Virus record (IMG/VR): IMGVR_UViG_3300031787_000341 | Span: 1 to 38,654 of that record | From: a virus | DNA: 38,654 bases | Direction: 5' to 3' (one strand) | Shown: in pieces, positions 6,231-36,000 of the stretch | Numbering within the stretch: the first letter of the stretch is position 1 | Layout: every line of letters starts with the position of its first letter | Translations under genes and position numbers: made by a program | Notes under the pieces: model-generated | What the model was told of the DNA's origin: nothing | Databases searched by the model: none | Seen by the model: only the letters and a program-made list of their open reading frames with translations

Positions 6231-6251
6231 TAAAAATACCTTAAAAAAACT

Positions 6252-6306
6252 TGTCAGGTTATACCCTTACAAACACCACGCAAATGTCAGGGTATAGCCT
6301 TACAAA
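6252..6306. repeat. 22-nt direct repeat pair
   Basis: Two copies of TGTCAGGKTATASCCTTACAAA (6252-6273 and 6285-6306) differ at two of 22 positions and are spaced by 33 bases, about three helical turns. They sit 20-75 bases upstream of the tRNA-cluster promoter and touch the 3' end of the small gene at 6300. The spacing suggests binding sites on one face of the helix. Confidence 0.6.
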
Positions 6307-6587
6307 TCTTTTAGCTTTAGCTTAATATCCTTTTTACTGTTGCCGATATAAGTAAATTCAACAAACACCCTCAAGGAAAACAAATCCAACCCAACCATTA
6401 AATACTTGAATATCCTGTTTGGTTTACCAATAATACCCACCCCGATAGTTGGGCGAACCCAAATTGCCAAAGAATATCTACCCCAAGAATCCTTACTGCA
6501 AACAGAAAAAGACACCCTTCTCAAAAGCGTAATCTTAGGTAGATTAACCCCCTTGTTAAAATAAACCCTACCCCTTATTAACGACAT
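6300..6587 (-). CDS. hypothetical protein, 95 aa (doubtful)
   Basis: An open frame of 95 codons (MSLIRGRVYFNKGVNLPKIT at the start) with alternating hydrophobic and polar residues suggesting beta strands (GRYSLAIWVRPTIGVGIIG). It ends in KKDIKLKLKDL. It is the only sizeable minus-strand frame in this gene-poor region and has no recognised family. Its 3' end overlaps a copy of the 22-nt repeat. It could be a real small gene or a chance frame. Confidence 0.45.
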   Translation of the reverse strand: MSLIRGRVYFNKGVNLPKITLLRRVSFSVCSKDSWGRYSLAIWVRPTIGVGIIGKPNRIFKYLMVGLDLFSLRVFVEFTYIGNSKKDIKLKLKDL

Positions 6588-7011
6588 AAAACGTACATTT
6601 TTTACCCCACAAAATTACATAACCCCCTGATAACCACACCTTAAATAAACCTTAAAAATCACCCTACCCCATTTATACAAAAAATACACCACCCGCAAAC
6701 GCACAGGGGTGGCCTTATATTTTGGGGTGGGGTCGGTTTTAGGGGTTTCGCCATTAGCAACCCGAGTACTGGCGATTTTTTGAGGATTGCCTGTAGCTGT
6801 GTGGATTGATTGCCGTTGTGGTGTTGTGGGGCTTTGGGGCTAAAGGGCTTGCCTGTGTTGGGTTGTGGGCTGTGTGGTGGCTCTGTATGGTGGGGGTTGC
6901 TGGCTGGTTTGCTTTGTTGTTTGGTGGGGTTTGAATTGGTTGCGCTCCCTCTGTTTGTGGTGTGGGGGTGTATTGTAGGGGGGGGGGGATTTTAATATAG
7001 GGGTAACGAAG
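6588..7011. other. non-coding region with strand-composition switch and inverted repeat; possible origin or control region
   Basis: The plus strand is CA-rich and nearly free of G-runs from about 6590 to 6700, then abruptly GT-rich with many G-runs from 6706 to 7000, ending in 11 consecutive G (6978-6988). At the switch, ACCCTACCCCA (6661-6671) pairs with TGGGGTGGGGT (6723-6733), and CCACCC (6689-6694) with GGGTGG (6707-6712), making a nested hairpin or cruciform. The region separates the leftward and rightward operons. No gene is convincing in it: a plus-strand frame at 6810-6995 encodes only low-complexity G/L/V/W/C sequence. Origin function is inference. Confidence 0.4.
6748..6781 (+). terminator. 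terminator-like hairpin with T6
   Basis: TCGCCA (6748-6753) pairs with TGGCGA (6770-6775) around a 16-base loop, followed immediately by six T. It looks like the end of a short plus-strand transcript, but no gene precedes it. It may terminate a small RNA or be part of the control region. Confidence 0.4.
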
Positions 7012-9708: not shown

Positions 9709-9737
9709 CACTCTTGCGTACTAACCTACCAATATAA

Positions 9738-9766
9738 ACCATCAGTTGAAAAGCTGGTGGTTTTTT
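9738..9766 (+). terminator. intrinsic terminator of the early plus operon
   Basis: ACCATCAG (9738-9745) pairs with CTGGTGGT (9754-9761) over 8 bp around an 8-base loop, followed by a run of T to 9766. Confidence 0.8.
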
Positions 9767-9776
9767 GTTACCTTTG
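9746..9776 (+). promoter_or_regulatory. promoter for the small membrane gene at 9799
   Basis: TTG (9746-9748), 20 bases, TACCTTTG (9769-9776). The -33 element lies in the loop of the preceding terminator. The start codon at 9799 is about 16 bases after the expected transcription start. Confidence 0.5.
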
Positions 9777-9798
9777 CCACCCTAAAATCAATGTAATT

Positions 9799-13303: not shown

Positions 13304-13334
13304 CAAAATTAACCAACCAACCAACCACCACAAA
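13304..13334 (-). promoter_or_regulatory. promoter of the minus operon with AACC-repeat spacer
   Basis: On the minus strand TTTG (13331-13334), a 19-base spacer and TAATTTTG (13304-13311). The spacer is built of tandem four-base units (plus-strand AACC repeated four times). The transcription start would fall almost at the start codon. Confidence 0.65.
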
Positions 13335-13359: not shown

Positions 13360-13392
13360 TTTGTTTTTCGTATGTGTTTTTTATTATTTTTG
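13360..13392 (+). promoter_or_regulatory. promoter of the replication operon
   Basis: TTTG (13360-13363), 21 bases, TATTTTTG (13385-13392). It diverges from the minus promoter at 13304-13334 with the two -33 elements about 26 bases apart. The leader to the ATG at 13510 is roughly 110 nt and highly structured. Confidence 0.6.
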
Positions 13393-13403
13393 CGATACAG
13401 TTC

Positions 13404-13508
13404 ATCACCTTTGTGATTTAGTAAAAGCTGCCGACACAGCTAACATAAAACTTATTTGAACCTGTATGGGGGCGGCTGTCGGGCCAAACCCGTACAGGTT
13501 ATTTTTTG
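13404..13508 (+). promoter_or_regulatory. structured leader with complementary hairpin loops and a terminator before the HNH gene
   Basis: Hairpin 1 is ATCAC/GTGAT (13404-13417). Hairpin 2 is AGCTG-CCGACA-CAGCT (13426-13441). Hairpin 3 is a 12-bp stem (13459-13470 with 13489-13500, one G-T wobble) whose apical GGC-TGTCGG-GCC carries the loop TGTCGG (13477-13482), the exact complement of the CCGACA loop. It is followed by ATTTTTTG, so hairpin 3 is an intrinsic terminator ending one base before the start codon. The design suggests attenuation or a ligand- or protein-controlled switch over the replication genes. It matches no riboswitch class that I can name. Confidence 0.55.
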
Positions 13509-13509
13509 T

Positions 13510-14151
13510 ATGAAAACGCATTTGATAAAAGGTACACGGAATTATTTTATTTCATCAAATGGTTATGTCTTTAAGGTGGAAAAGGGTAAAGAGATTAGGT
13601 GTAAAGCTAGGTTAACACCTAAATCTAAAGAGGTTAGAGTTTTTGTTAATGGTAAGGACTGTAATCTATTATATTTGATGATAGAGTATTTTTTTGGGGA
13701 AATAAAGCCAACAGATAGTATAAAGTTCAAGATTAATAAAAATTTAGAGATTAGTTACAATTCTATTAGGATTAGGTCGGCTATTGGGAATGATAAACTT
13801 TCAGCACACGAAGAAAAACTGCTTTTTGATTTTAATTGTCATATTAAAGCCACATCTGCTAATGCTAGGGCTATGGATAAAATAACTGGTATAGAAGTTT
13901 TTAAGGTGTTACAAATTTCTGATTTTAGATGCGTTTACTGTGGTTGTCAATTACATCCAAAAACCTTTCACTTAGACCACTTTCAAAGTTTACATAAGGG
14001 TGGAAAGAATAGGTTTAGAAACTTAGTTGCAAGCTGCAATATTTGTAACTTAATGAAGGGTGCTATGGATGGAAATGAATTTTATGCAATGTGCAAGAAA
14101 ATAGTTAGTAAATATCTTTATGCAAATAATTTACCAATTGAAAGTCAATAA
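13510..14151 (+). CDS. HNH endonuclease-type protein with NUMOD4-like N-terminus, 213 aa
   Basis: From the ATG at 13510 (MKTHLIKGTRNYFISSNGYV) the first 75 residues resemble the NUMOD4/AP2-type DNA-binding segment of phage HNH homing nucleases (NYFISSNGYVFKVEKGKEIR). The C-terminus has an HNH core: CVYC (141-144), FHLDHFQSLHKGG (153-165), N171, and CNICN (176-180). It is the first gene of the replication operon. It could be a homing endonuclease or a domesticated nuclease. An upstream ATG at 13456 lies in the terminator stem and is unlikely. The CxxC, LDH and CNxCN residues are all present, so nuclease activity is plausible. Confidence 0.7.
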   Translation: MKTHLIKGTRNYFISSNGYVFKVEKGKEIRCKARLTPKSKEVRVFVNGKDCNLLYLMIEYFFGEIKPTDSIKFKINKNLEISYNSIRIRSAIGNDKLSAHEEKLLFDFNCHIKATSANARAMDKITGIEVFKVLQISDFRCVYCGCQLHPKTFHLDHFQSLHKGGKNRFRNLVASCNICNLMKGAMDGNEFYAMCKKIVSKYLYANNLPIESQ

Positions 14152-14191: not shown

Positions 14192-15034
14192 ATGCCTAAA
14201 AAAGACGCTTTTTATTTCCCACACGATTACAATGCCGCTAACGATGTAAAATGCCTTTTTCTTAGGCAGCAACTTGGTATGGAAGGGTATGGTATTTTTT
14301 GGTTTTTGGTTGAACAATTAGCTAATTCAGGTGGTAAATTGCCGTTGCAAATTATTCCCGTTTTAGCCATGCAAATGCAGGTTCCAGAGGTGAAAGTAAC
14401 TGCTGTTATTAAGCAATTTGGTCTTTTTGAGGTAGAAGAAAATGAGATTTTCTTTAGTAATAGACTAAATGCGCATCTGTTTGAAAGAGAGCAAATTAGA
14501 TTAAGAAATTCAGATAAAGGAAAGAAAAGTGGCGAAAAAAGAGCAGCAATGGTTCAACAACGGTTAAACAACGGTTCAACTGCGGATGAACAAAGGAAAG
14601 GAAAGGAAACTAAAGGAAATGAAAAGAAAGTAAAAGAAAGTAAAGAAAAGGAAACTAAAGAAAAAACGGTAAACGGAATTTTGGAAGAATCATGGATTAA
14701 TGCACAAAGAATCCTAAAAGACGACAAACCCTACATTGAAGCCATAGCCATGAAACACAGGGTTGAGTTTAAACAAATTCAAGTTAGGCTCAATGCTTTC
14801 CTGAAAAGATTAGACGAAACCCTAGATTGGAAAGATGTGCCCGCTTTAAAACGGCACTTTTCAAATTCACTAAACAAACACGGTGTAGCTGTTCCTGATT
14901 TTAGTTCGGGGGATGTTGGCAGAAAAACAGCGATAGTAGAACCGCCCATGACAATGACGAAAGAGGAAATGATGTACGGGTGGGATGAACCGCCAAAGGA
15001 TGAATACGATTACTCGAATATTAGTTGGGATTAA
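14192..15034 (+). CDS. DUF4373-type replication protein, 280 aa
   Basis: Residues 1-95 (KKDAFYFPHDYNAANDVKCL, then FLRQQLGMEGYGIFWFLVEQ) match the Lin1244/Lin1753-like (DUF4373) N-terminal domain, a winged-helix-like region found in phage replication proteins. A basic, repetitive linker follows (residues 120-165; alternating K, E, T and G). The C-terminal half is helical and resembles a DnaD/helicase-loader partner. In many phages such a protein precedes a DnaC-type ATPase, as here, and is thought to bind the origin and load the helicase. Whether it initiates replication or only assists cannot be told. Confidence 0.65.
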   Translation: MPKKDAFYFPHDYNAANDVKCLFLRQQLGMEGYGIFWFLVEQLANSGGKLPLQIIPVLAMQMQVPEVKVTAVIKQFGLFEVEENEIFFSNRLNAHLFEREQIRLRNSDKGKKSGEKRAAMVQQRLNNGSTADEQRKGKETKGNEKKVKESKEKETKEKTVNGILEESWINAQRILKDDKPYIEAIAMKHRVEFKQIQVRLNAFLKRLDETLDWKDVPALKRHFSNSLNKHGVAVPDFSSGDVGRKTAIVEPPMTMTKEEMMYGWDEPPKDEYDYSNISWD

Positions 15035-15054: not shown

Positions 15055-15648
15055 ATGAAGTTTTCAGAAATCATAATTCAGGAAGGCAAAAAAATAACCC
15101 CAAATTTTAGTTTAGACGCTAATAATTTGAGAAAAAACTACCAAACGGTGTATGAGGGGTTTAAGAATAGCTTTATTTGCCCCTTAGAGTGCCCAAAAAA
15201 GGGCTTTCTCCATGTTGGTGGGGTAGGAGTAGGAAAGACAATTTTGATGCGAATTTTCCAGCGTATAATGCGAAATACGGAAAGACGGTTTAAATGGCTT
15301 TCTGCCTATGAGTTAAAAGACCTTTTGGAAACAGAGGGGGTTGCTTGGGTAAAAAAGCATTACGGAAGGGATTTAAAACAAGATTTGTACATTGACGATA
15401 TAGGGGTTACTTCATCCGATTACATGAAGTATGGAAACACAACTAACATTTTAGCGGAACTGCTACTTGAACGGTACGATTTGTTTATTAGCGAGGGGTA
15501 CTTAACCCACCTTTCCACTAACCTACCACCCCGCCACAATGATGCAAAAGTTCCTACTTTAGAAAAAATTTTAACAGCAAGGGTGATGGATAGAGTTCGT
15601 GAAATGTGCCAAATCATTACTTTTGAGGGTGGAAGCCTTCGTAAATAA
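15055..15648 (+). CDS. DnaC-like helicase-loader ATPase, 197 aa
   Basis: Walker A GGVGVGKT (55-62) and Walker B DLYIDDIG (110-117) with the usual spacing mark an AAA+ ATPase of the DnaC/IstB type. The N-terminal region is short, and LERYDLFISEGYLTHLSTNL resembles sensor 1 (THLSTN). The C-terminus carries RVMDRVREM, where R residues may act as an arginine finger. DnaC-type loaders open DnaB rings and place them at origins. The immediate neighbour downstream is the DnaB-like helicase, with a 12-base gap. Confidence 0.8.
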   Translation: MKFSEIIIQEGKKITPNFSLDANNLRKNYQTVYEGFKNSFICPLECPKKGFLHVGGVGVGKTILMRIFQRIMRNTERRFKWLSAYELKDLLETEGVAWVKKHYGRDLKQDLYIDDIGVTSSDYMKYGNTTNILAELLLERYDLFISEGYLTHLSTNLPPRHNDAKVPTLEKILTARVMDRVREMCQIITFEGGSLRK

Positions 15649-15660
15649 CCTGTAGAAAAC

Positions 15661-17100
15661 ATGACTAAGACCAAGAAAAAAGACGATTTATCATTGATTT
15701 TCGGGAAGGTTCAACCAAATGCGAAGGAATCAGAGAAGTATGTTTTAGGGGTTTGCTTGAACCATCCGAAAGAATATCTTACAGCCGTAAAAGAAATTTT
15801 AAAGCCTGAAGATTTTTACGTTTCCGAAAATGCTATTATTTACGAAGCGGTTGTAGAAATTTCAGAAAAAACAGTACCCGATATTAGGCTTGTTATGGAA
15901 CATTTAAAATCGGGTGAAAAATTAGAGCAAATTGGCGGGATGCCATTTTTGGTTTCTTTTTTGGAGGTTACCCCAACAGCCACGCCTATTAGGCAACATT
16001 GCTTGATAATTAAGCAAAAAAGCCTACAAAGAAAGTTGGTTGAATTTAGTTCAAAAACACTAACTGCCGCAATGGATGATGGTGAAGATGTTTTTGAAAC
16101 ATTAAGATATTCCGAAAACTACCTTTCAGAAATAAACAACGAACTTGCACAAATGAAGGTTACGCCAATAGAAAACGTAGCCGCAAATGTGATTGATAGT
16201 TTCTGCGAAAAAGTGTACAAAGCAAGACGTGGTGAGGTAGATGAAAAAGCTGTTTACACAGGAATAAAAGAATGGGATGAAATGAATGGTGCTTTATTTA
16301 ACGGTTTGTATATTATCGCAGGTCGCCCCGCAATGGGTAAGGGTGTACACCTAACGCAACTGGCAGTAAACATGGGTAAAAGATACAAGATAGGAATTGT
16401 GAACGGGGAAATGACAAACGAACAATTACTCATAAGAATTGGGTGTAACTTGAAAGGAATAGATAACTTTTTGTTTAAGAAAAAGCCCGAATATATCAAA
16501 GATGAAGATATGGATTTGGTTCGTGAAGCAATGGATGAAGCTATACAATTGAACATAAAACTTGAAGATAAAAGACGAATAGATGTAATTGCAAATAAGA
16601 TAAGATTGTGGGTTAAACAAGACGGGGTGCAATGTGTATTGGCAGACTTTCTTACCATATTCCAAGTGCCACCCGAACACGAAAGATACATGACCGACAA
16701 ACAAAAAGTAGATTATGTGTTGAATGTGTTTGTGAATCTTACAAAAGAATTGAAAATACCTATCATTCTTTACGCACAGATGAACCGTGAAATACTAGGC
16801 AGGCATGGTAAAAAAGAACCAAACCTTGCAGACTTAAAGCAGTCGGGCAGTATTGAAGAACTTGCCTACCAAGTATCTTTCTTACACCGCCCCGAATATT
16901 ACGACCCACAAGCAACAGTAGATGAAGATGGTAACGACATAAAAGGTCTTATGTACCAAATAGTAGCAAAACACAGAGATGGTAGAATAGGAAGAATAAA
17001 ACTTAAAGCCCACCTTGAAAAATCATTATTAACAGAATGGGAAGAAGAAACATTTGACTTTAAAAAAGCAATAGGGACGGCAGAACCACTACCATTCTAA
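15661..17100 (+). CDS. DnaB-like replicative helicase, 479 aa
   Basis: The N-terminal helical domain (1-165) has the SEKYVLGVCLNHPKEYL pattern of DnaB. Walker A is AGRPAMGKGVHLTQ: G221...GK226-227, where the usual S/T after K is G228. The Walker B-like ADFLTIF follows VQCVL. The later motif is ILYAQMNREILGR, then LKQSGSIEELAYQVSFLHRP (the DnaB H3/H4 region). The length matches DnaB (about 470). It would unwind the fork as a hexamer loaded by the product encoded just before it. The missing S/T is unusual and may reduce ATP handling, or K-G may be tolerated. Confidence 0.8.
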   Translation: MTKTKKKDDLSLIFGKVQPNAKESEKYVLGVCLNHPKEYLTAVKEILKPEDFYVSENAIIYEAVVEISEKTVPDIRLVMEHLKSGEKLEQIGGMPFLVSFLEVTPTATPIRQHCLIIKQKSLQRKLVEFSSKTLTAAMDDGEDVFETLRYSENYLSEINNELAQMKVTPIENVAANVIDSFCEKVYKARRGEVDEKAVYTGIKEWDEMNGALFNGLYIIAGRPAMGKGVHLTQLAVNMGKRYKIGIVNGEMTNEQLLIRIGCNLKGIDNFLFKKKPEYIKDEDMDLVREAMDEAIQLNIKLEDKRRIDVIANKIRLWVKQDGVQCVLADFLTIFQVPPEHERYMTDKQKVDYVLNVFVNLTKELKIPIILYAQMNREILGRHGKKEPNLADLKQSGSIEELAYQVSFLHRPEYYDPQATVDEDGNDIKGLMYQIVAKHRDGRIGRIKLKAHLEKSLLTEWEEETFDFKKAIGTAEPLPF

Positions 17101-33003: not shown

Positions 33004-36000
33004 ATGCTTATAAACAGGGATTTTAGCGGTAAGTTGAACTTAGATGTGCAGGACTTTAAAGTGCCTGCGGGTGATTATACTTATGCCTTAAACATTACAA
33101 AAGATTCTTTAGGTGAAGGGCAAGATAGGGTTGTGGCTAATATATTAGGCAACAGAAAGGTAAACTATACTTTACCAAGTGGCGACAATAAAGAAATAGG
33201 GCACTACCCCGACTTAGTAAGAAACAAGATTTACTACTTTATTTGGAATAGTAACAACTTCCACAGCATACTTGCTTACAACAGAAATACAGATACAATA
33301 TCTAAGGTTTTAGAAAGCAAAACAGATAGTGGTGGCGTAGATATTTTAAACTTCAACCCTTCATATAAAGTAAACTCTATAAACGTAATTCATAGAGATG
33401 AAAGTGAAGGGGACTTGTTATTTTTTAATGACGGGCTGAACCAGCCAAGACGCATAAACGTAGGTGCTACTTACTCTACATGGTTGGAAGAATACTTAGA
33501 TGTGGCTAAACCTTGCCCACAAATGGCTCCAAAAGTTGTTTATGTAAACGATACAAACGTAACAATAAACAATCTTAAAAATAAACTGTTTCAATTTTCA
33601 TATAGATGGGTATTTGAGAACTACGAAAAGTCCGTATGGTCTGAATTTTCAGCAGTTCCTTTGCCTTTTGATTATGATGATACTTATGCAGACGACCCGA
33701 CAAAAAACAACAAGATTGCAATATATCTAAGTACTGGTTCGCTTGAAGTAAAAAAGATTGAAGTTGCGGTAAGAGAGATTGTAAGCGGGGCTACTACCGA
33801 TTGGCAGTTGTTTGAAATTATAGACAAAGATGAATTGTCTATTTCAGACGATGAATTTTATTTGACACATTTTAAGAACGATGGCTTATATACCCCTATT
33901 GACTTAACAGAATTTAATGAGATTCAAGACTACGTTCCTTTAAAGGCTAATGCAGCAGAAATGCTTAATGGTAATACTCCTATTTACGGTGGTATTACGG
34001 AAGGGTATAATAAAGTAAATGCAGATATTGAAGTAAACATAGATAACGCTTTACCTAGTTTAAAGTACGAATATGCGGGGGTTGACGAAATAACATTGTA
34101 TGTTGGTTCGGCTGTTGTAGCGGGTACTACTTATAATGTTAGTTTTGATTATGTTTCTAATGCCGTAGGCGATGCTTCCCCTAAAAATATTTCTTATTTG
34201 TTTTCGGGTGGTGGCGACCAGAACACAATAGCAAATAGCATTGCTTCATTACTTTCGGGTAATAACATTGATGCACAAAATTTGGGCGGTGGGCTTATTA
34301 GAGTTCAAACAATCAATGGTGTAAACGGAAGTATTACGAATGTGGTTGTTTCTGTTAGTGTTGGTGCTGCATCTGATTACTTTTTAGATTATTCAGGAAC
34401 ACTTTTTACTGCATTTTGTAAAGGTGTAGATAGCGGAACACAAGGAACACAAATAAAAATTGTTTTAAACGGGTTTCAAGTAAATGCAGATGATTTATTA
34501 AATGGACGTGCAAAGTATGTCATTAATGCTATAAATGGTTCTGGTTCAAGTATTGGCGTAGAATATTCTTACACAAGTGGCGACCAAGTTTCTGTTTCTA
34601 CATTGTTAGGCAATATTCAAGCTGCTTTAATATCTAATGGATGGACTTTTGTAAGTCTTTCTAATGGTGTTTTAACAATGAATTATGCGGGTGGGTTTAC
34701 ATTGTTTTCAAGTGGCTTAAAACTTAACTCATCTTCAATTAATAGACAAACAACACAGTTTGCTTATCCATACGATGCGGGTGCTACTTTTCAATTAATG
34801 TACTTTGATAGTAAGGGTAGGACTAACGGTGTTACTTATGACGTAGATGGAAACTTTAAAACTCCTTCGGGTAGTAATGCAGTAGATTTCCCGCAACCGC
34901 AACTTATAATCAACCACAGACCGCCTACGTGGGCTGTATATTACAAGATTGTAAGAACAAACAACACTACCTATCAAAAACGATTGCAATGGATAAGTGA
35001 TAGTGCTTATTCGGATTCTGCTTCAACCCCTTCAGGAGATAGGTATGTTTACATAGGCATATCAAACATTGACCTTTATAATAATCAGATAGAGGGGACT
35101 AAGGGTATTGTATCTTATAGTTATCAGCAAGGAGATAGGATTCGCATTACAAACAGATATTCCGCTTTGGGCGTATTGAACGCAGTAGAACAAGTGGATT
35201 ATGAAGTATTGGGATTAGAAACAAACCCTGTAATTAATGGTGCAGAATATAGCGGAAACTTTGTAAAGGTTAAATACCCACAATCCCTACCTACAGGAAT
35301 TTTATTTGACGGAACAGCAGATTATCAGAATTATGAAATTCTACTTTATAGTATTAGACAAACAGCAGCAGACACTAAAAAGTTATACTTTGAGTTCGGC
35401 AAATGCTTTGGAATTGGTAACGCTGGAACAGCAAACGCCTACCACATTGGACTTGACCAAACCCAAAGTGCAGACCTCGCAACCCCCGCAAAAATCACAT
35501 TAGCTAACGGAGATTTATTCTTTAGAAAAAGAACTATCCCATTAGGAACAAGAAAGACTTTTAGCGGTTCGGGTTTGTACACAACCAATTTTGGTACTGT
35601 TTCTCCTTTTTGGATGGTGGGTGTTCCTGTTGGAACAATCACCAACGGAAACTTTACATTCAGGACACAAAATTCAAATGCGGCAAGTAACGCAGCAGGT
35701 GTATTCCCAACCAACGCAAGCAACGAATGTGTGTTTAATAACACAGGGGCTAACCCTTGCTTTTTAAGATTGGCGGGTACTATTCCTGTAACTTCCGATG
35801 CTTCCGCTTCATACGCCCTTATAGCAAAGATTACTACTGCATCAACCACAACCATTCAAACGGTTATGGAAGCGCAGTCTATTACTTTACCCGATGCAGG
35901 GTATAATTTTGAGTTTGATAGAGTTATTACCGTACCCGCAAATGCCAAAGTGTTTTTACTTTCTCATGTGTTAGGAAGAACCGCAACCCCGCCAAATGTG

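Follow-up and report, generated by a model that had tools for sequence, protein, structure and literature searches.

A recurrent phage leader whose 5' hairpin and predicted intrinsic terminator carry complementary loops

The window analysed here, a stretch of 38,654 nucleotides (IMG/VR virus record IMGVR_UViG_3300031787_000341), carries in front of its replication operon a short leader in which a 5' hairpin and an intrinsic terminator have complementary loops. Leaders of this kind are apparently a real and undescribed RNA switch or brake before early and replication genes in many Bacteroidota-type phages. At the level of sequence, comparison establishes a conserved potential for pairing between the two loops, a predicted terminator, and the placing of both between a promoter and a start codon. 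We interpret the window as one member of this recurrent element, the 'kissing-loop terminator leader', in which premature termination, locked in cis by the loops, would restrain or time early genes; we hold this interpretation to be modestly probable, as there are no transcript or termination data and neither the direction of the effect nor cis versus trans action has been tested.

The leader and its operon in the window

The initial annotation, made from the letters alone, had placed between 13360 and 13512 a leader RNA with a promoter, two hairpins and a terminator reaching the start codon, and direct reading located all of these pieces. The promoter claimed at 13360-13392 does contain Bacteroidota-type TTTG and TAnnTTTG elements, the two loops claimed to be complementary, CCGACA and TGTCGG, are exact reverse complements over 6 nt, and the terminator, with a T-tract just before the ATG at 13510, is present and ranks first among the terminator-like hairpins of the window. 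The features of the region are:

13304..13334, minus strand: divergent promoter of the same type, serving the leftward operon (promoter scan)
13360..13363, plus strand: -33 promoter element TTTG (promoter scan)
13385..13392, plus strand: -7 promoter element TATTTTTG (TAnnTTTG; sequence reading, promoter scan)
13404..13417, plus strand: extra weak hairpin ATCAC-CTTT-GTGAT, -2.5 kcal/mol (RNA folding)
13426..13441, plus strand: hairpin 1 (H1), AGCTG-CCGACA-CAGCT, kissing loop CCGACA at 13431-13436 (reading, folding)
13449..13456, plus strand: linker motif AACTTATT, immediately 5' of the terminator and common to one family subtype (motif comparison)
13459..13500, plus strand: terminator hairpin, -26.3 kcal/mol, 12-bp outer stem 13459-13470/13489-13500 (RNA folding)
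13474..13485, plus strand: apical hairpin GGC-TGTCGG-GCC, kissing loop TGTCGG at 13477-13482 (reading, folding)
13501..13508, plus strand: terminator T-tract ATTTTTTG (reading, terminator scan)
13510..14151, plus strand: HNH endonuclease, 213 aa, first gene behind the element (PF01844, 1.4e-09)
14192..15034, plus strand: DUF4373/Lin1244_N replication initiation-type protein (PF14297; phrog_2562)
15055..15648, plus strand: DnaC-like helicase loader (phrog_3277)
15661..17100, plus strand: DnaB-type helicase (PF03796, PF00772)

The transcript is inferred to start at about 13396-13399, and the leader RNA folds at -38.8 kcal/mol (z = -3.7), with none of 200 shuffles as good. Its terminator (-26.3 kcal/mol alone, -27.4 kcal/mol with flank) was the strongest terminator-like hairpin on either strand in a whole-window scan, the next one lying 9 kcal/mol behind. 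The arms, AACCTGTATGGG (13459-13470) and CCCGTACAGGTT (13489-13500), form 12 bp with one G-U, the ATG lies 9 nt past the stem, and the loop duplex CCGACA/TGTCGG is worth about -8 kcal/mol. Promoter sites of the TTTG ... TAnnTTTG type, which we take to be the Bacteroidota consensus, number 7 in the window against 2.0 expected, a count matched by none of 100 shuffles. The weak hairpin at 13404-13417 was not seen in relatives.

Some further features of the window were noted in passing. A 15-codon frame (ATG...TGA, 13466-13513) lies within the terminator and overlaps the HNH start as ATGA; it is possibly a leader peptide, or chance. Terminator-promoter junctions occur at 1911-1854 (minus strand), where a matching Bacteroidota-type promoter takes its -33 TTTG from the hairpin tail, and at 9736-9784 (plus strand), where a TAnnTTTG box comes right after the T-tract. 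Two 22-nt near-palindromic direct repeats, TGTCAGGnTATAnCCTTACAAA, lie 33 nt apart in non-coding sequence at 6244-6312 and are operator- or iteron-like, and positions 6722-6993 form a repetitive G/T-rich stretch, apparently non-coding, with several degenerate TTGTGGTGTTGTGGGG-like units.

Two other signals were considered for the window and rejected. An antiterminator in which the first bases of the window RNA, TACAGTTC (13396-13403), pair with GAACCTGTA (13458-13466) does arise in prefix folds, but 39% of shuffles pair equally well, and the pairing is absent from relatives. The motif AACCTGTA, considered as a palindromic operator, is not in excess in the window (34 occurrences against 43.5 expected).

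Taken without its relatives, the 6-nt loop match of the window is no more than suggestive. Any loop-complementary pair of this kind appears in about 0.1% of leader shuffles, and the exact window loop falls inside a hairpin of at least 5 bp with a chance of 8e-5; across the whole window, about 2.5 loop-complementary hairpin pairs are expected by chance and 2 were seen. As the window at large yields such pairs by chance, it was only the relatives that made the match convincing.

Immediate relatives are few. A single contig, IMGVR_UViG_3300042691_023337, shares the leader, with 100% identity throughout the 6.6 kb of the comparison; it is also the only one to match the exact two-loop pattern of the window. 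Because this sole homologue is identical, covariation cannot test the window copy's own pairing. A nucleotide search found no homologues in named phages. HNH homologues were discarded as a guide to further copies of the leader, since the domain itself is common and a full-length homologue exists only in the sister contig. The related phages L069-L074 and L082 have a terminase 66-67% identical to that of the window and keep the NinG-DUF4373-SSB order, and at the site of the window's HNH gene they show no HNH gene and no hairpin, only a short plain leader and a gene of about 65 aa. Since both are missing from the phages nearest in terminase, the element is not ancestral to this replication operon, and by this comparison the HNH gene and its leader have taken the place of something else in the window's lineage. 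In five of these loci (L069, L070, L072, L073 and L082) a gene of about 65 aa was observed upstream of DUF4373, with a leader of about 30 nt, right behind the promoter region.

Loop complementarity in other phage leaders

The DUF4373 (Lin1244_N) protein served to collect loci of the wider family. In other Bacteroidota-like phages, replication operons of the DUF4373 type differ in sequence and share a layout, in the order promoter TAnnTTTG, 5' hairpin, terminator, T-tract and ATG. The loop-loop pairing (kiss) takes a different sequence from leader to leader, for example:

L037: loop ..AGTAGAGAA.. with TTCTCTACT
L036: GTAAGGAG with CTCCTTAC
L041: ATTGCGC with GCGCAAT
L014/L017: AGGTCGAAGC with GCTTCGACCT
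L022: ATTGCAGC with GCTGCAAT, on a scaffold nearly that of L014/L017
L026/L027: CGTCTCAC:GTGAGACG versus GGTCTCAC:GTGAGACC

For an enrichment test, terminators were chosen on energy and T-tract alone, deduplicated, and then classed by the ATG/ORF that follows and by the TAnnTTTG box; expected numbers of loop matches were derived from shuffled upstream sequence. Where an ATG (ORF of at least 60 aa) lay within 25 nt and a promoter box no more than 110 nt upstream (n = 67), 40 terminators showed an exact loop-loop match of at least 7 nt to an upstream hairpin (1.2 expected), 20 a match of at least 8 nt (0.2 expected) and 11 a match of at least 9 nt (0.0 expected). At a threshold of at least 6 nt, two thirds of the class kiss (45/67), and some of the 22 'negatives' are members that the descriptor missed, such as L056 and L198 with their branched terminators. 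No excess was found among terminators with a promoter and without an ATG (n = 257), where a loop match occurred in 5 against 6.8 expected, and all 3002 terminators without an ATG gave 20 matches of at least 8 nt (9.6 expected). The match is specific to the reverse complement, with 40 cases against 2 for identity and 4 for the unreversed complement. The descriptor scan detected no promoter-plus-ATG element in the remainder of the sister contig, in Flavobacterium phages 1/32 and 6H, in Bacteroides phage B124-14, in Riemerella phage CRP6 or in the part of Porphyromonas phage005b that was scanned.

Covariation was followed in an alignment of eight leaders of one subtype (A6), in which every cell of a 7-bp kiss helix is paired (56/56) and 5 of the 7 pairs show double changes. 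A covariance model built from A6 without the kiss pairs (R2) gave 30 matches among 88 loci, and all 17 of its distinct full-length matches kiss, over 7-8 nt; the kissing matches include leaders outside both the seed and the descriptor list (L297, L306, L010 and L315:2058). Within these 17 leaders 119/119 kiss cells are paired, only one of them as G-U, and 29 cells carry double changes against a shuffle mean of 9.1, a number that none of 500 shuffles reached. Kiss covariation was 0.611, compared with 0.147 for shuffled and at most 0.095 for slid partners; relatedness, which the shuffle control leaves uncorrected, is allowed for by the slid control and by the independent subtypes. In subtype A, described by model R1, all 13 proper distinct matches kiss. 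R2 had no matches among 295 genomes from the class to which G017 belongs (the Chitinophagaceae MAG genome that holds L316), a set without a positive control. The initial annotation was to be given up if the two loops neither covaried nor were both conserved in relatives; the pairing is conserved, with many compensatory changes, across dozens of phage leaders of the same layout. Its idea of a loop-loop pairing in the leader gains support from this conservation and from the lack of an Rfam family, while the control of read-through that it proposed remains an inference, with no termination measured.

Anatomy was compared in 43 non-redundant members from 41 loci. H1 usually starts 3-8 nt past the -7 box, that is, at the predicted 5' end; linkers span 7-43 nt and leaders 88-127 nt, the ATG lies 2-24 nt past the terminator stem, mostly 8-12, and most relatives kiss over 7-10 nt. 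By our own estimate of geometry (2.8 Å per bp, 6 Å per linker nt), the linker can span a straight coaxial stack of H1, kiss and terminator in 37/43 members and is too short in 6/43. The gene behind the element is most commonly DUF4373, and DnaG-type primase-helicases, N6/N4 DNA methylases, KilA-N and a SLOG protein are also found there, as are HNH genes in the window, L036, L237 and L315. L315 holds two paralogous elements whose loops differ; the first precedes DUF4373, the second a NUMOD4-HNH gene. L039 and L199 also hold two elements each, with non-matching loops. The HNH gene of L315 has an element copy to itself, which would fit an element that moves together with homing endonucleases or draws them in. 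The four HNH genes lie directly behind unrelated leaders (L315 4026-4547, L237 7254-7790, L036 2687-3253 and window 13510-14151), and two carry NUMOD4.

One member comes from a phage in culture. The leader of Flavobacterium phage 11b (AJ842011.2) has the promoter box TATATTTG at 33621-33628, a hairpin GTTATTA-TTCGGGCAGGTC-TAATAAC, and a terminator GCTCATCA...CCTGCCCG...TGATGGGC followed by a T-tract and the ATG at 33738 (PHG11b_62), and its kiss is CGGGCAGG:CCTGCCCG. Bacteroidota hosts are inferred from four lines of evidence: the promoter type, the gene families, phage 11b and the Chitinophagaceae MAG contig L316.

The window leader is very probably an outlying member of this family; its own loops are without covariation evidence, and the assignment rests on layout, the AACTTATT motif and the family. 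It meets the promoter criterion (TAnnTTTG no more than 110 nt upstream) with TATTTTTG at 13385-13392 and TTTG at 13360-13363, the terminator criterion with a T-tract and then the ATG of an ORF within 25 nt, and the loop criterion, but with a kiss of only 6 nt (CCGACA/TGTCGG). It lacks a 5'-terminal H1, which here starts 33 nt past the -7 box with the extra weak hairpin in front; this is not a strict requirement, as H1 of L039:6590 is also distant, at 26 nt. Neither R1 nor R2 matched the window, and the two models describe two subtypes only. The motif AACTTATT stands 5' of the terminator in the window and seven other members; in its general form, AACTT[ACT]TT right 5' of the terminator, it marks 8/43 members including the window, compared with 5/3002 control terminators.

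Possible modes of action

The reading that we prefer is termination locked in cis. Most transcripts would end at the T-tract as RNAs of about 90-120 nt. H1, folding first, could seize the terminator loop as it emerges, and this grip may speed or lock the folding of the terminator, leaving controlled read-through as the only route to expression of the early, replication or endonuclease gene that follows, as a control of timing or dosage; no releasing ligand, protein or RNA has been identified. Several observations count against this lock, namely the 6-nt kiss and distant H1 of the window, the lack of an R2 match and the identity of its homologue, the 6/43 linkers too short for a straight cis complex, and L069-L074 and L082, without HNH gene and hairpin at the window's site.

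An effect of opposite sign is possible, if doubtful: the H1 loop may capture the terminator loop before the 3' arm exists, delay the terminator and favour read-through, a kinetic antiterminator built from loops rather than from an alternative stem. Transcription does reach the loop ahead of the 3' arm, which allows the kiss to form first, and in the 6/43 members with short linkers kiss and complete terminator do not fit together without a bend. Yet the two can coexist in 37/43, terminators of -10 to -26 kcal/mol outweigh a loop contact of 6-10 bp (about -8 kcal/mol in the window), and in many members the kiss fills the small apical loop of the terminator itself, which exists only once the stem closes.

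We consider action in trans similarly unlikely. Here the accumulated short RNA would pair through its loops with nascent leaders of its own or a superinfecting phage, as feedback or immunity in the manner of P4 CI RNA, c4 and IsrK, or would dimerise. Loops do vary from phage to phage, and even within a phage that carries two elements (L315, L039, L199, L167), and there is a precedent in IsrK, a prophage leader whose terminated sRNA acts on its own read-through mRNA (PMC4825925). Against this, a tyrosine integrase (PF00589) is missing from 16 of the 17 virus records that carry the element, many of which are fragmentary, so lysogenic immunity is not an obvious need, and cis geometry suffices. 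An immunity arms race predicts loops evolving faster than stems, which was not seen: double changes affect 29/119 kiss cells and 23 to 33 per 80 to 106 stem cells, so that the kiss pairs change no faster and give no sign of such a race.

It is improbable that the element is a stand-alone small RNA gene, closed by the kiss into a nuclease-resistant RNA with its own function, the gene behind being merely next or separately promoted. Most members have H1 at the predicted 5' end and the terminator as 3' end, which would protect both ends, but dozens of phages place a start codon mostly 8-12 nt past the terminator, and since the loop match is not in excess for promoter and terminator without a following ATG (5 seen, 6.8 expected), the tie to the downstream gene is part of the pattern. 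As for the window alone, an ordinary terminator imported behind a promoter with the HNH gene, with an accidental loop match, would agree with the 2 pairs found against 2.5 expected window-wide, with the missing R2 match and with the identical sole sister, but it has little to commend it given a pair seen in only 0.1% of leader shuffles, a complete family layout (promoter box, terminator, ATG at +9, linker motif) and a kiss in two thirds of such leaders (45/67 at 6 nt or more).

Returning to the family as a whole, we think it fairly probable that these leaders form a widespread class of phage regulatory RNA that has not been described. In such RNAs an obligate loop-loop contact with the 5' hairpin of the same transcript would condition the intrinsic terminator; each early gene would thus have a stop signal that can be addressed individually and that other RNA copies could possibly read in trans.

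Comparison with known systems

The expectation that no named element has this form was borne out against Rfam, which gave no match at the gathering score for the window or for those relatives that were scanned; the sRNA matches to the window and to L037 were all below it. Within the literature searched, which was restricted to open-licence papers and does not exclude an earlier description elsewhere, no kissing terminator of Bacteroidota phages was found. The trpB motif (RF04312) matched L037 weakly, at 36.2 bits against a gathering score of 59, and did not match the window. It resembles the phage element as a 5' leader of two hairpins, the second an intrinsic terminator. It is nevertheless a different RNA, given the score of the relative, the taxa and genes concerned (Firmicutes and Fusobacteria, near amino-acid genes) and an antiterminator proposed in the P1 stem, with kissing not mentioned (PMC11109978). 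IsrK of prophage Gifsy-1 is also a phage leader, in which one promoter gives a short terminated RNA and a read-through mRNA; it differs in that it controls, in trans, how its own long transcript is translated, and the abstract describes no loop-loop match between a 5' hairpin and the terminator (PMC4825925).

Leaders that terminate prematurely are well known, as are kissing loops; a recurrent leader whose terminator loop is the partner of its 5' hairpin is absent from Rfam and from the papers searched. The element precedes replication, primase, methylase and homing-endonuclease genes, in phages of Bacteroidota type whose early gene control is little understood, and the copy in cultured Flavobacterium phage 11b makes the mechanism experimentally accessible now.

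The P4 CI and P1/P7 c4 RNAs are leader RNAs complementary to parts of their own leader, and in P4 termination occurs prematurely in front of the replication genes. They are separate processed antisense RNAs that act in trans in immunity, and unlike the element described here they are not known to pair a 5' hairpin with an intrinsic terminator loop at a start codon. The put RNA of HK022, a hairpin RNA right behind early phage promoters, also governs termination in cis. It binds RNA polymerase and prevents termination at distant terminators, whereas the element described here contains its terminator, which pairs with the hairpin. Kissing loops also control termination or priming before replication genes in the plasmid attenuators of pT181 and pIP501 and in RNAI/RNAII of ColE1, and several family members have 7-nt loops like RNAI/RNAII. 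Engineered antisense attenuators reportedly exist, and the strictly Watson-Crick, freely exchangeable loops described here would suit orthogonal transcription-control parts. In the plasmid systems the partners are separate RNAs from opposite strands, whereas the phage element carries both loops on one short transcript.
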